From an uncultured Bacteroidia bacterium (GTDB taxonomy: Bacteria; Bacteroidota; Bacteroidia; Bacteroidales; ML635J-15), in NCBI GenBank assembly GCA_902791865.1, contig CADAXK010000002.1, positions 372,001-436,000 on the forward strand: a stretch of 64,000 nucleotides of DNA. The letters are read 5' to 3'. The position numbers and the translations under genes were made by a program. This document shows positions 21,376 through 25,898 of this stretch, in pieces (the stretch's first letter is position 1; each line of letters starts with the position of its first letter). The notes under the pieces are model-generated. The model saw nothing but the letters and a program-made list of their open reading frames with translations. It was not told the origin of the DNA and ran no database searches.

Positions 21376-21401
21376 CAGCAGCCGACATTTGCCGACTGCT
21401 G
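21376..21401 (-). terminator. Shared hairpin between convergent operons
   Basis: CAGCAG and CTGCTG pair with a longer imperfect stem. The A-run at 21370-21375 gives a U-tract on the minus strand, so it best fits the end of the peptide operon. Confidence 0.6.
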
Positions 21402-21432
21402 GATATTATAATATATAATATAAGGTGTTGCC

Positions 21433-22113
21433 TTACAACGCTTCCGTTACATTCCCTTCATACTCGCCAGTGCTTATGTTTACGACTTGGATTTGAATGT
21501 ACTTAGTTGAGATGCTTACGCTGATATAGTATCCCGCTGCCGTGAAGTTGTTGCTATTAACAGTAGTGGCGGCGTTATAGATGCCACTCTGCTGACCTTG
21601 CTGCTCCTTGTAGAGCTTTTCGAGTTGCTCCTTGGCAATCACCTTGTAACCTTTTTCTTTCAGTGCATTGATAATCTGGCTGCGGAATATGGGTTCTTCA
21701 ATGGATTCATCGGAGATAGTGATTTTATCCAATGCAAAACTACATCCTTTCTCTATACTTTCGGTTGCTTTGCCGATGGCTTCGACAAGTTTCGTTGTCT
21801 TGGCATTGGGCAGTTCCACAGCAGTGTAGGTGTAACAATAGGATATGTCACCACCGTTGATTTTGATTTCACCCTTGTTGAGGTTGCGGATGGCTACTGT
21901 TTTTTGCGGATAGTTTCGCTTTGCCTCGTTCAAAGCTCCTTTGTATGCCGACTGGTAACTGTCGTAACCGTTTCTAGTTTGCAAATCCCTGCCAAGTACC
22001 AATTCATTTTTCTTTGGCGCTTCCTGCGCCTTGTTGTAATCCTCCTGCGCCATAGCGTTTCCGATGGCGAGAAACATGGCAAAAACCAAAATGATAATTC
22101 CTTTTGCTTTCAT
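21433..22113 (-). CDS. Secreted CsgG/LpoB-like protein, copy 1
   Basis: A 226-residue exported protein (signal peptide MKAKGIIILVFAMFLAIGNAMAQ). The C-terminal ~110 residues resemble the CsgG/LpoB fold: IFRSQIINALKEKGYKVIAKEQLEKLYKEQQGQQSG, then VSISTKYIQIQVVNISTGEYEG. No lipobox is seen, so it is likely periplasmic. It is a tandem paralogue of 22125-22835 (shared EQLEKLYKEQQGQQSG-type and STGEYEG blocks). It is the last gene of the run that starts at the radical SAM gene. CsgG forms an outer-membrane export pore in curli systems; a related role here is a guess. Confidence 0.6.
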   Translation of the reverse strand: MKAKGIIILVFAMFLAIGNAMAQEDYNKAQEAPKKNELVLGRDLQTRNGYDSYQSAYKGALNEAKRNYPQKTVAIRNLNKGEIKINGGDISYCYTYTAVELPNAKTTKLVEAIGKATESIEKGCSFALDKITISDESIEEPIFRSQIINALKEKGYKVIAKEQLEKLYKEQQGQQSGIYNAATTVNSNNFTAAGYYISVSISTKYIQIQVVNISTGEYEGNVTEAL

Positions 22114-22124
22114 CCTACTGACTT

Positions 22125-22835
22125 TTAGAAATTTATGGTTGTATTTCCTTCGTATTCACCTGTACTGACATTGATAACTTGTATCCTGACAGAAGATTCA
22201 GAGATTTTCACATTGACAAAATAACCAACGGCAGAGAAGTTGTTTTCCTGAACGGTGGTATTATCGTTGAAAACGCCACTTTGCTGCTGCTGTTGCTCCT
22301 TTTGTAGCCTTTCAAGAAATTCCTTTGCCACCACTTTGTAGCCTTTATCCAAAAGCACATCTATAACCTTGTCTTTGATTTCTTCCTTATCGACTCCATT
22401 TACCGCAGTCACTTGGTCGATAGCCATTCTTGAACCTTCGCGCACATTGCGGAAAGCCCTTTCCATACCTTTGGACAGGGTTTCTAACCATTGGTCTTGG
22501 GGATTTACCTTATATACCACTTCACAAGTTACAGGTACACGATGATTCCCCCATCCGTCGTTCTCACCCTTAATATTTATAATGTCAACCCATACATTAG
22601 GATATTTTCTCCGTGCCTTTTCTAAAAAAAAAGAATACCATTCTGTGGGACTCATTTTCTGTTTTCCGCCTAATTTCGATTCTAATTCTTTTTTGAAATC
22701 TTCGCTGGTCATAATTTCTTTTATCTTTTCATCATCGGAAAGTTGCTTCCTGAAAGTAGTATAAATTTGTGCATATCCCGACAAACAAGTTACTGCAAAT
22801 AACAGTGTAAAAATAAATTTTGCTACTCTTTTCAT
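22125..22835 (-). CDS. Secreted CsgG/LpoB-like protein, copy 2
   Basis: A 236-residue paralogue of the following gene, with signal peptide MKRVAKFIFTLLFAVTCLSGYAQ. The same C-terminal pattern is seen: EIKDKVIDVLLDKGYKVVAKEF, LERLQKEQQQQQSGVF, then VNVKISESSVRIQVINVSTGEYEG. A Gln-rich run (EQQQQQSG) lies just before the last sheets. The N-terminal part (residues 30-120) is less conserved between the two copies. Gaps of 11 bp (to copy 1) and 27 bp (from the membrane protein gene) suggest one transcript. Confidence 0.6.
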   Translation of the reverse strand: MKRVAKFIFTLLFAVTCLSGYAQIYTTFRKQLSDDEKIKEIMTSEDFKKELESKLGGKQKMSPTEWYSFFLEKARRKYPNVWVDIINIKGENDGWGNHRVPVTCEVVYKVNPQDQWLETLSKGMERAFRNVREGSRMAIDQVTAVNGVDKEEIKDKVIDVLLDKGYKVVAKEFLERLQKEQQQQQSGVFNDNTTVQENNFSAVGYFVNVKISESSVRIQVINVSTGEYEGNTTINF

Positions 22836-22862
22836 ATTGAATCTTTTTTTGATTTTATTTCA

Positions 22863-23621
22863 CTATTTTTTATCGCTTACAAGTTTATATAATTGAGTAT
22901 AGTATTCGTACAAATCCTTTGAATTTGAATTTTCTCTAGTCTTCTCTATAAGTGGTTCTAATCTTTTATATGTTTTCTTAATTGTGTGTCCATATAGATC
23001 CAACATCAACTTTTCGGCAGTCTTGTCTTCTAATCCAGAAATAATTATTCCCATAAATTCCATTCTCATGCAAAAGGTTTTTATTTTATCACGATTAATA
23101 CGCAAACCTTTTTTCCAATTTTCGTCTTTTCCACTACTTTGATCTAATACTTTACTATAATCATCCAAGCTAATCTCATCTCCCTTGCTCATTTTCAGCT
23201 TCTGTTTTATTATGTCTTTGTCGTCATAATAGTCATCAGAAAGAATGTAATCTTGGCATTGTTTAAACGACTGGGAATTTGTCACCATTTTCATAGAATC
23301 TATGAACACACTGAATATGCCTAACTTGGTTTGCTTGAGTAAACTTTCTTGCTGAATTTTTAGGTTTTTCTGCTGTTCTATCAAACTTTCCTGTTGTTTG
23401 GATAGAGAATGAAAAGCCACAGCAAATGCAATACCTGTAAATAATGCAGTAGCTGCTGAAAATGAAACATTCAAAAGCTCCATTGCAGAAAGATGCGGCA
23501 TGAAAAATCGCACAATAAATGGCGCGATGGAAAACAAAAGCCATACAACCATAATGAGAACCAAAATGACCCCAAAAGATTTGTTTTTCTCTTTTCTCAC
23601 ATCTATAATATTTTCTCTCAT
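22863..23621 (-). CDS. Two-TM membrane protein with coiled coil (DUF4760-like)
   Basis: A 252-residue protein: two TM segments (about residues 16-36 and 48-70), then a Gln-rich coiled coil (LSKQQESLIEQQKNLKIQQESLL) and a cytoplasmic helical domain. The end of that domain (FCMRMEFMGIIISGLEDKTAEKLMLDLYGHTIKKTYKRLEPLIEK) resembles DUF4760 and abortive-infection-type proteins with the same layout. It starts 12 bp after the stop of the Cys-rich peptide gene, so it is likely co-transcribed. Immunity, export or signalling roles are all possible. Confidence 0.55.
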   Translation of the reverse strand: MRENIIDVRKEKNKSFGVILVLIMVVWLLFSIAPFIVRFFMPHLSAMELLNVSFSAATALFTGIAFAVAFHSLSKQQESLIEQQKNLKIQQESLLKQTKLGIFSVFIDSMKMVTNSQSFKQCQDYILSDDYYDDKDIIKQKLKMSKGDEISLDDYSKVLDQSSGKDENWKKGLRINRDKIKTFCMRMEFMGIIISGLEDKTAEKLMLDLYGHTIKKTYKRLEPLIEKTRENSNSKDLYEYYTQLYKLVSDKK

Positions 23622-23633
23622 TATTTTTCTTTT

Positions 23634-23780
23634 TTAATCGCAGTTATCACAACAAGTATCACAATCACAATCGCTAGAATCACACCCGAAACAGTTATTA
23701 TTACTGTTCTCCTGCAAGTCAAGATTGCTAAAATCGTATGCAATCATCTCTTCTGAAATTTTTTTCTTGTTCATTTTCAT
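23634..23780 (-). CDS. Cys/Asp-rich candidate RiPP precursor peptide (48 aa)
   Basis: A very short gene that starts 4 bp after the radical SAM stop. The product has a charged leader (MKMNKKKISEEMIAYDFSNL) and then the core CFGCDSSDCDCDTCCDNCD, with seven Cys and six Asp. With Met1 at 23780, the C-X3-D pairs are C30/D34, C33/D37 and C44/D48, and the dipeptide CD occurs five times. C-X3-D spacing is what ranthipeptides such as freyrasin use for Cys-to-Asp thioether links made by SPASM radical SAM enzymes (established for that family). The alternative start at 23774 removes two residues. A metal-binding peptide is the main alternative. The gene is too short for common gene finders. Confidence 0.78.
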   Translation of the reverse strand: MKMNKKKISEEMIAYDFSNLDLQENSNNNCFGCDSSDCDCDTCCDNCD

Positions 23781-23784
23781 CTGT

Positions 23785-25110
23785 TTAATATTTCATTATT
23801 TTTAAAACTTTCTTTTTTATCAAAAACTTAATGGTATCAATAATATTGGTATTGTCTGGTGAAAGTTGAAGCGTTTCGCACAATTCGCCTACGGTGAACA
23901 GACTTCGCTCCTTCAAACCCATAATAAAGTCGTAATACGCCTGATTGACCATAAAGAACACATCATCGGTAACATTGTAAATTACATAAGCACCTTCGTC
24001 TTCCTTCCTTGCTATGATATCTGTTGCAAATTGTAGTTTCGTGTCGGATCTAAGTTCAATGCTTTCGCTACTACAATTTGGTGCCTGGAATGCCAGTCTT
24101 CCTGTACACCACATATCCTTCTTGTTCCAGCCACCGTTGAAAACCTTCGCGCTTGTACGGCAGCCGCCATTGCAATGGTTTAGCCAAGTGCAATCCATAC
24201 ATTCTTGTGGAACATACAGGGCTGAACGCCAATCGCTCATCTTCTGCCAGATGCCGCGCAAATCTTCTTTCAAGATGTTGCCATACGAATATGGATTGTG
24301 TGCGCAGGGGCGTACATCACCGTTGCAAGATACAGCAATCACAGTCCGCCCCGCCTGGCATTTGCGGTTCAGAAAGGCGTGCTTCTCCATCAGAACAGAT
24401 TCGGGGAACACACACTTGGGCAGGGCTTCCAAAATATCCACCTTCATATCCAGTTCCTTTTCAATCCAAAGCAGTTCGGAAATTACCTGCCTTACTTCTT
24501 CGACACTCAAAAGCAAATCGAGCCTCGGATATTCCACATTCAGGCCCATAGGAGTTGCAGCAAACGACTTGCAACCCAATGCTTTCATGTTTTCGGCGGT
24601 CTGTCTGATTTCGTGCAGGTTCTCTTTGGTAACAACCATATTTACCGTAAACCTCACTCCCACAGAAACCAATTTCTTGATATTTGTCTCAAAAAGACTA
24701 TAATTGTCCGTACCTGTGAGCCTTGAAAACGAATCTGTTTCTCCAGAAGGGCAGGAAGTCAGTACGCCTACTTTCTGTTCTTTGAGAAAATGTATGAAAT
24801 CATCGTCTGCAAGGGTTAGGTTGGAGTTGAGCGACACTCTTGTCTTGTTTCCTTTCAGCAGACGAATGACTTTTTTCGTAAGTTCCTTGTTTATTAGCGG
24901 CTCACCACCAGTAACAATAACGCTGAAAATTTTGTTGTCAACAAGTTTCTGTACACATTTTAAAACGGTTTCATCATCCACTTGACGCATAGGGCGATTC
25001 TTGATTTCAGAATCAAGGTTGTAGCAATGAATACAACGATGATTGCAGAAGTCTGTAACTTCAAGTTGCGCTGTTAGTGGCAATGACAAATATCGTTTTC
25101 TTATTTGCAC
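23785..25110 (-). CDS. Radical SAM/SPASM peptide maturase with PqqD-like tail
   Basis: A 441-residue enzyme. The N-terminal cluster motif CNHRCIHC (Cys22, 26, 29) and TGGEPL mark the radical SAM domain. The SPASM region has the Cys set C251, C262, C269, C304, C307, C313, C317 and C335, enough for two auxiliary 4Fe-4S clusters. Residues ~355-441 (VTDDVFFMVNQAYYDFIMG then SLFTVGELCETLQL) look like a fused PqqD/RRE leader-binding domain. Together with the peptide gene directly after it (4 bp gap), this is the pattern of a RiPP modifying enzyme. The start is GTG at 25110, since an in-frame stop lies just upstream. A -7 element sits at 25137-25144. Confidence 0.88.
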   Translation of the reverse strand: MQIRKRYLSLPLTAQLEVTDFCNHRCIHCYNLDSEIKNRPMRQVDDETVLKCVQKLVDNKIFSVIVTGGEPLINKELTKKVIRLLKGNKTRVSLNSNLTLADDDFIHFLKEQKVGVLTSCPSGETDSFSRLTGTDNYSLFETNIKKLVSVGVRFTVNMVVTKENLHEIRQTAENMKALGCKSFAATPMGLNVEYPRLDLLLSVEEVRQVISELLWIEKELDMKVDILEALPKCVFPESVLMEKHAFLNRKCQAGRTVIAVSCNGDVRPCAHNPYSYGNILKEDLRGIWQKMSDWRSALYVPQECMDCTWLNHCNGGCRTSAKVFNGGWNKKDMWCTGRLAFQAPNCSSESIELRSDTKLQFATDIIARKEDEGAYVIYNVTDDVFFMVNQAYYDFIMGLKERSLFTVGELCETLQLSPDNTNIIDTIKFLIKKKVLKIMKY

Positions 25111-25136
25111 TGATATAATTTACAACAATTTACTTG

Positions 25137-25144
25137 CAAAAGTA
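25137..25144 (-). promoter_or_regulatory. -7 promoter element for the radical SAM-peptide operon
   Basis: TACTTTTG on the minus strand, 27 bp before the GTG at 25110, so the operon has its own promoter besides that of the HTH gene. Confidence 0.5.
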
Positions 25145-25179
25145 TAGTCTTATTTCTTTTCAATGTATGGCGAATATTG

Positions 25180-25407
25180 TCACGTGGCAACATCTGCCAC
25201 CTCTTGGAGTGCCTCGGAATAGTAGTGGAAAAAATCTTTGTCAAGAATTTTGCTGATGCGCAACAGTTGCTGCGTGTCGATGGACGGTTTGTTGTACAAG
25301 CGTTGCAAAGTGCGCCTGTCGATATGCAACTGCTCGGCGAGCCAAGCGTTTGTGCGGTGCTGGTGGCGCAGTTCATCGCGGATAAGATTGCCTATGTTTA
25401 TCTGCAT
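25180..25407 (-). CDS. Small HTH transcriptional regulator (XRE-like)
   Basis: A 75-residue protein, MQINIGNLIRDELRHQHRT onwards, with an HTH at about residues 20-50 (NAWLAEQLHIDRRTLQRLYNKPSIDTQQLLRISKILDKDFFHYYS). Small Bacteroidetes regulators of this shape are common and often sit beside peptide or mobile gene clusters. The start at 25407 is chosen because sequence upstream in frame is the structured leader and has only a TTG. Its stop is 69 bp before the radical SAM start, so it may control or be co-transcribed with that operon. Confidence 0.75.
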   Translation of the reverse strand: MQINIGNLIRDELRHQHRTNAWLAEQLHIDRRTLQRLYNKPSIDTQQLLRISKILDKDFFHYYSEALQEVADVAT

Positions 25408-25463
25408 AGTTTTACTATTTGTGCGCTTGGCTACCGATTCCTTGTATGTTTTTCCACAACCAC

Positions 25464-25609
25464 AAAAAAGAAAGGCGAGCGAATATCGTCTCCTAACTGC
25501 GGTCGTGGAATTACCTCTACAAAGAAAGACACAAATGCTCGCCAATATGCGAACTTTTGCCTTTTGTTGTCTTTGTAGCCTCTTTTGAAATTTTCCACGT
25601 TTCAGTTAG
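25464..25609 (-). promoter_or_regulatory. Structured leader with interleaved inverted repeats (attenuator-like)
   Basis: Read on the minus strand, the order is A1 (25609-25571), B1 GGCGAGC (25543-25537), A2 (25524-25493), B2 GCTCGCC (25480-25474), then a U-rich run TTTCTTTTTT (25473-25464). A1 and A2 share complementary blocks (CTAACTG/CAGTTAG, CGTGGAA/TTCCACG, CTACAAAG/CTTTGTAG). B1-B2 plus the U-run look like an intrinsic terminator. Pairing of A and B would form a pseudoknot or mutually exclusive states. It lies 57 bp upstream of the HTH start, within the transcript expected from the -7 element at 25710-25717. I see no gene in 25408-25898. Confidence 0.5.
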
Positions 25610-25709
25610 GTCGGAACAAATAGCAAACGCTATGTTAATATTTTGTTTCTGTTCGTTCTATGTCATTATAATTCAAATTCTACATTTTGTTGTGTTTTTA
25701 TAATCAGCG

Positions 25710-25717
25710 CAAAGGTA
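25710..25717 (-). promoter_or_regulatory. -7 promoter element for the HTH gene leader
   Basis: TACCTTTG on the minus strand, an exact TAnnTTTG match. It would give a leader of about 300 nt before the ATG at 25407. Confidence 0.45.
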
Positions 25718-25863
25718 AGGAAAAATGTAATATGGGCGTAATGAAGATGATATATTTCGGTATTTTTATTGATACACAATAATTCTTTTCGTCTTGCACA
25801 ACCTTGTACAAATCGCAAACCGTAACAGATGCTGAAACAAGTTCAGCATGACTGTGAAGAGAG

Positions 25864-25898
25864 AAATCGTAAATCGTAAATCAAAAATCGTAAATCCC
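25864..25898. repeat. Dispersed atcgtaaatc-type tandem repeat, copy 2
   Basis: aaatcgtaaatcgtaaatc, then aaaaatcgtaaatcc: four near-copies directly after the stop of the WG-repeat gene. Confidence 0.6.

Follow-up and report, generated by a model that had tools for sequence, protein, structure and literature searches.

A putative mobile RiPP cassette from an uncultured Bacteroidales bacterium pairs a radical SAM/SPASM enzyme with precursor peptides built of Cys-[Asp/Asn/Glu] units

Within a 64,000-nucleotide stretch of DNA from an uncultured Bacteroidia bacterium (Bacteroidales; ML635J-15; assembly GCA_902791865.1, contig CADAXK010000002.1, positions 372,001 to 436,000 of the forward strand), here called the window, six minus-strand genes lie inside one 4.46-kb insert. 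Sequence comparisons together with a model of one protein domain support this locus as an operon for a ribosomally synthesized and posttranslationally modified peptide (RiPP), comprising a precursor peptide, a radical S-adenosylmethionine (SAM)/SPASM maturase and, at the end of the latter, a tail resembling a RiPP recognition element (RRE). In the reading that we prefer, and to which we give about an even chance, the insert is a mobile RiPP-type cassette whose enzyme joins each Cys of the core peptide to the next residue by a non-alpha thioether. An earlier note on this DNA had also proposed a single RiPP system, with the linkage rule of freyrasin; the peptide, maturase and tail of that proposal stand, but the linkage rule does not.

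The precursor gene (23634..23780, minus strand) begins 4 bp after the enzyme gene and encodes 48 amino acids; a YDFSNL motif marks the leader, after which come NCF and a core made up of Cys-Asp units. The window core, CFGCDSSDCDCDTCCDNCD, contains seven Cys, six Asp and three Cys-X3-Asp pairs, just as had been described. A single-sequence search with the peptide returned three relatives (E = 3.5e-20, 9.9e-6 and 6.2e-5, the first of which may be the cluster containing the window's own peptide), and a profile search returned 176 precursor clusters at an E value of 1 or better. Since these relatives exist and peptides of the family lie beside the enzyme in related loci, the peptide, judged by sequence, is not a chance open reading frame (ORF). 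It had not been recognized as a member of any named family, and neither Pfam nor NCBIfam offered one: the window peptide had no NCBIfam match at E values up to 1, and thus none to the SCIFF-type precursor model TIGR03973. Among the matches listed (the best 120 of 176), nearly all are unnamed or called "hypothetical protein." Among the titles listed from the open-licence PMC literature, none describes this peptide family, and the atlas of radical SAM RiPPs by Clark and Seyedsayamdost (2022) may list it.

The association of peptide and enzyme is conserved. A scan of one genome per species (84,980 species), seeded by two short conserved stretches and so giving a lower bound, yielded 10 loci with an enzyme relative at 61 to 79% identity; L013, which is on the same contig as L006, was dropped before counting. 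In all 10, the enzyme gene is directly followed by small peptide genes, of which one was found in L009, L010 and L011, as in the window, and two in each of L003 to L008 and L012; nine of the 10 have cores of the Cys-Asp type. The expectation that a Cys/Asp peptide would accompany homologous radical SAM genes was therefore borne out for relatives of at least 61% identity. The locus thus shows a general feature of RiPP systems, a modifying enzyme accompanied by a short precursor gene whose leader is conserved and whose core varies. The exception, L010 (6001-8978), is divergent: only one of its five Cys is followed by Asp, and in place of DUF4760 (see below), which is absent, the precursor is directly followed by another radical SAM gene, one that lacks a SPASM match. 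The core of L011 has three Cys only, and this locus is in a metagenome-assembled genome titled Lachnospiraceae, with an enzyme 61% identical to that of the window, which would mean either cross-phylum transfer or a misbinned contig. In L012 (6001-7208), two overlapping ORFs make up the enzyme gene and part of the tail is missing, as in a pseudogene or an assembly error.

The predicted maturase (23785..25110, minus strand; 441 amino acids, GTG start) matched the Pfam models Radical_SAM (5.3e-22) and SPASM (1.2e-08), both above the cut-offs. It has the cysteines expected of a SPASM radical SAM enzyme: C22, C26 and C29 form the CX3CX2C motif, and the SPASM region has the eight cysteines counted previously (251, 262, 269, 304, 307, 313, 317 and 335); over 27 aligned sequences, C335 is almost always conserved and the other seven without exception. 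No equivalog model of NCBIfam or Pfam reached its cut-off for the enzyme; the best NCBIfam score, to GeoRSP (TIGR04303), was 104.3 bits, far below the cut-off of 400. A sequence search of the PDB returned six distinct sequences, namely, anSME (two), 5v1q "Radical SAM" (SuiB), SkfB, PqqE and 5wgg (CteB). In a PADLOC run that did not include the peptide, the enzyme had viperin matches only (49 bits at best), which we attribute to the shared radical SAM core. At an E value of 0.001 or better, the enzyme has 566 clusters of relatives. In one of them, P0068, the representative of an 18-member cluster, the enzyme sequence continues directly into a complete precursor, which may be a natural read-through or a fusion.

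The earlier note had likened the C-terminal tail of the enzyme (residues ~355 to 440) to the leader-binding domain of PqqD. The tail was modelled alone with AlphaFold2, since the SPASM part of a model of the whole enzyme was of too low quality to interpret, and in Foldseek/VIA-align comparisons its best matches were indeed RRE, i.e., RiPP leader-binding, domains, although the Foldseek E values were weak (3.1e-03 at best). The best structural match was the leader-binding domain of TigE (chain residues 4 to 85), a radical SAM RiPP enzyme that we take to be a poly-cyclopropylglycine maturase; the matched domain is N-terminal in TigE and C-terminal here, and the substrates are unrelated. The tail is thus predicted to have an RRE-like fold, and with it the RRE-type fold of RiPP systems is present in a predicted model and as a fold only; leader binding by this domain would be its likely role.

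Core statistics were drawn from 138 precursors (the best 120 of 176 plus 18 from alignment A2), 137 of which have the leader motif, with 76 nonredundant cores; the peptide of L011, which is without that motif, was left out. In 133 of the 138 precursors, the motif start and the first Cys are exactly 15 residues apart; this Cys is preceded by Asn in 131 precursors and followed by Phe or Tyr in 131. Mean pairwise identity is 0.62 in the leader 15-mer versus 0.44 in the cores, which hold 3 to 15 Cys. Of the 592 Cys in these cores, 414 are directly followed by Asp or Glu (z = 24 versus shuffled cores). With the first Cys excluded (n = 516), the next residue is Asp in 390, Asn in 73 and Glu in 23 cases, 486 of 516 in sum. 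The conserved unit is Cys plus the immediately following Asp, Asn or Glu; the window core has five Cys-Asp units. These three residues are reported as acceptors of non-alpha thioethers, and since the units are conserved and their second residues are known acceptors, we infer a link from each Cys to the residue next to it.

This link has to be weighed against a freyrasin-like ranthipeptide, an unlikely but credible alternative, in which nested links of the PapA kind would run from each Cys to the Asp at position +4, and the pairing of neighboring Cys and Asp would simply follow from the nesting. The maturase type and the Cys/Asp-rich precursor are shared with the freyrasin system (PapA/PapB), PapA itself has nested motifs, the window core has its three Cys-X3-Asp pairs, and overall, Asp or Glu is at position +4 of 238 Cys (592 in total, of which 575 have a +4 residue), above shuffled cores with a z of 8. 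Moreover, PapB is reported to form an adjacent (CX0D) link, though incompletely, and to prefer CX3D when both are offered, which favors this alternative. However, the enrichment at +4 depends on the next Cys being at +3: where position +3 is Cys, 198 of 242 cases have Asp or Glu at +4, and where it is not, 40 of 333 do, a depletion compared with the 27% of core residues that are Asp or Glu. Therefore, the Cys-X3-Asp spacing is a by-product, and we rejected it as a general rule for the cores, and with it the linkage rule that had been put forward for the window peptide. The enzyme, too, scored significantly with the PapB-family model NF047865 (90.1 bits) but did not reach the curated cut-off of 340. 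Adjacent Cys-[Asp/Asn/Glu] units, an origin in Bacteroidales, variable cores and a DUF4760 neighbor set the present system apart from freyrasin with its Cys-X3-Asp motif.

Alternatively, the enzyme could target the N-C-[FY] sequence with which nearly all cores begin, or else a terminal Trp, leaving the Cys-Asp repeat free, metal binding or disulfide forming. Among the best 120 of 176 precursors, NC[FY] is present in 118 and a C-terminal Trp in 47, the number of Cys varies widely as given above, and the cores are acidic, with a mean net charge of about -7.5, all of which would suit this reading. Nevertheless, Asp, Asn or Glu after nearly every later Cys would be left unexplained, and the L011 peptide keeps Cys-Asp units without NC[FY], so that we regard this possibility as unlikely. 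A metal-handling peptide, metallothionein- or bufferin-like, which the enzyme merely trims or protects, is improbable. It would agree with the dominance of CxC and CxxC spacings (neighboring Cys are 2 or 3 residues apart in 380 of 516 pairs), with the many carboxylates and with the bufferins, described as RiPPs that chelate excess copper (PMC12452194), but sporadic presence and variable cores do not fit a housekeeping buffer, and no metal transporter was recognized among the insert ORFs. That the locus is not a RiPP locus and the small ORF is incidental can hardly be maintained: the lack of a known product and of names for nearly all precursor matches listed would favor it, but it is already contradicted by the peptide beside the enzyme in 10 of 10 loci, by the RRE-like fold and by the enzyme-peptide fusion.

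Other known systems share single features with the proposed cassette, in which Cys would be joined to the next residue. Asn is also a Cys acceptor in an NxxcA-type ranthipeptide (PMC8326336), where a single link is made to an Asn three residues before the Cys, whereas here Asn directly follows Cys (73 of 516). The same paper describes proteusin radical SAM epimerases with a C-terminal RRE, as here, but with the radical SAM cluster only, whereas the present enzyme has the full set of SPASM cysteines. Radical SAM enzymes with precursors are also known from clusters of Bacteroidales (PMC10352776), which mostly have GG-type leaders and PCAT transporters. Neither was found in this insert: its six genes gave no transporter match, and neither a protease nor an ABC transporter was recognized among its ORFs. 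In the best 120 of 176 precursors, G[GAS] occurs near the core start in 6. By cross-linking its peptide, the present enzyme is predicted to give a natural product of a new type.

The cassette is present at a variable site. Its left flank gene was found in 22 of 26 genomes of the genus, and we compared 11 same-genus loci, apart from the window's own, in which this gene is at least 95% identical. In five (L016, L019, L020, L021 and L023), the flanks are contiguous or within some 20 bases of each other, and in L019, window position 21407 is joined directly to 25867; comparison with these empty sites of sister genomes delimits an inserted cassette of 4459 bp (21408..25866). In the other six, the right flank was not seen in the compared stretch, one of these being at a contig end. 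At an E value of 1e-60, a single genome among 198 relatives had the enzyme, and that was the window's own; of 393 genomes of the order, two had it, again including that of the window. The GC content of the insert is 39.0%, versus 44.5% and 41.1% in the flanking 10 kb. No enzyme relative was confirmed in viral contigs when phage carriage was checked. In genome G006, one of the six other genomes, the same site (L029:934-2486) has a different radical SAM/SPASM gene (443 amino acids; best NCBIfam match StsB, 112 bits, below the cut-off), then an ORF for 68 amino acids, after which the right-flank genes resume; this is possibly a second, unrelated RiPP cassette. In G017 (L031:2888-7401), another of the six, PADLOC identified type II restriction-modification genes at the site, two for DNA methyltransferases and one for a restriction enzyme. 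From its gene content, the site looks like a hot spot for variable or defense genes.

The cassettes themselves have diverged unevenly. Over 36 locus pairs (window, L003 to L009 and L011; L010, without DUF4760, and L012, with a broken enzyme gene, were left out), mean identity was 0.80 for the catalytic part of the enzyme, 0.48 for its tail and 0.38 for DUF4760. The catalytic domain is far less variable than the tail, DUF4760 and the precursor cores. The front class CFTCEAEPCVCDC is combined with eight end classes, and the end class DDYDPDHEIWQDN with four front classes; the cores look modular, and recombination may be the origin.

According to the mechanism that we propose, the RRE-like tail would capture the YDFSNL-type leader, and a 5'-deoxyadenosyl radical generated at the radical cluster would abstract hydrogen from the side chain of the residue that follows each Cys, upon which the Cys sulfur would close a small ring onto the side chain of the next Asp, Asn or Glu, giving a non-alpha-carbon thioether. 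A protease would then remove the leader, and the product would leave the cell. The variable product may act extracellularly, and the DUF4760 protein may be its partner in immunity or export. Because the cores are variable, the site elsewhere has restriction genes and the membrane partner changes fast, a role in conflict or recognition is suggested. In a wider and more tentative picture, possible rather than probable, this would be a fast-diversifying mobile system in which runs of adjacent Cys-Asp/Asn/Glu on swappable, modular cores become strings of small thioether rings (seven-membered for Asp or Asn), the system serves in conflict or recognition among rumen Bacteroidales, and the rapidly changing DUF4760 membrane protein is the cognate immunity protein or receptor. 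If adjacent-residue links form, the reaction would be an unusual ring formation and a candidate tool for making small thioether rings. This large family of precursors (176 clusters) and matching enzymes (566 clusters) is found in a phylum, Bacteroidota, in which almost no ranthipeptides (n = 2, by the TIGR03973 rule) were recorded when the Hungate1000 rumen cultures were surveyed in 2026 (PMC13289728). With its swap-in site, diverse cores and DUF4760 partner, the system opens interbacterial antagonism or signaling to direct testing.

The six ORFs and their intergenic gaps of 4 to 69 bp are as previously described. Next to the peptide gene lies the gene for a protein (22863..23621, minus strand) with two transmembrane segments by hydropathy and a DUF4760 domain (Pfam, 4.7e-09). 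In 9 of 10 loci it directly follows the peptide genes, in eight of them with a match above the Pfam cut-off; that of L006 is below it (E = 0.045) and has a tblastn match of 6.9e-29. As a candidate for the export or immunity component of the earlier proposal, this gene is conserved, its role being a prediction. Upstream of the enzyme gene, a small Cro/C1-type helix-turn-helix (HTH) protein of 75 amino acids (25180..25407, minus strand) is a predicted regulator; the ORF containing it (25180-25545) gave subthreshold HTH_26 and Xre-like matches. Homologues are upstream of the enzyme gene in 6 of 10 loci (L003 to L008).

The two remaining insert genes (22125..22835 and 21433..22113, both minus strand) encode predicted secreted proteins, the former with an N-terminal hydrophobic segment, that are 38% identical to each other. 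Their proposed likeness to CsgG/LpoB is distant: Pfam gave no CsgG match for either, LpoB matched the 21433-22113 protein below the cut-off (E = 0.036), and for the 22125-22835 protein, hhalign of a four-sequence alignment with CsgG-bearing neighbors of other loci gave a probability of 72%. Relatives of both are complete in L007 only (58% identity for the 21433-22113 protein, the closest seen), with partial matches in L003, L004 and L006. A CsgG-domain protein above the cut-off is present downstream in four other loci (L005, L006, L009 and L012). Those of L005 (8479-9372), L006 (8504-9826) and L009 (9127-10431), downstream of DUF4760, differ in their C-terminal domains (Fib_succ_major or Lcl_C below the cut-off; FGE-sulfatase, strong, in L009), as if a secreted base carried swappable ends.

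A terminator had been placed at the operon end. A terminator-like palindrome is indeed present at the left edge (21376..21401, minus strand; five such sites found versus 4.1 expected from shuffles), but because a very similar one is found in the cassette-free L019, L020 and L021, it belongs to the host site and not to the cassette. Near the right edge of the insert, at 25829-25852, lies a 24-bp repeat, ATGCTGAAACAAGTTCAGCATGAC, of which the genome has three exact copies.
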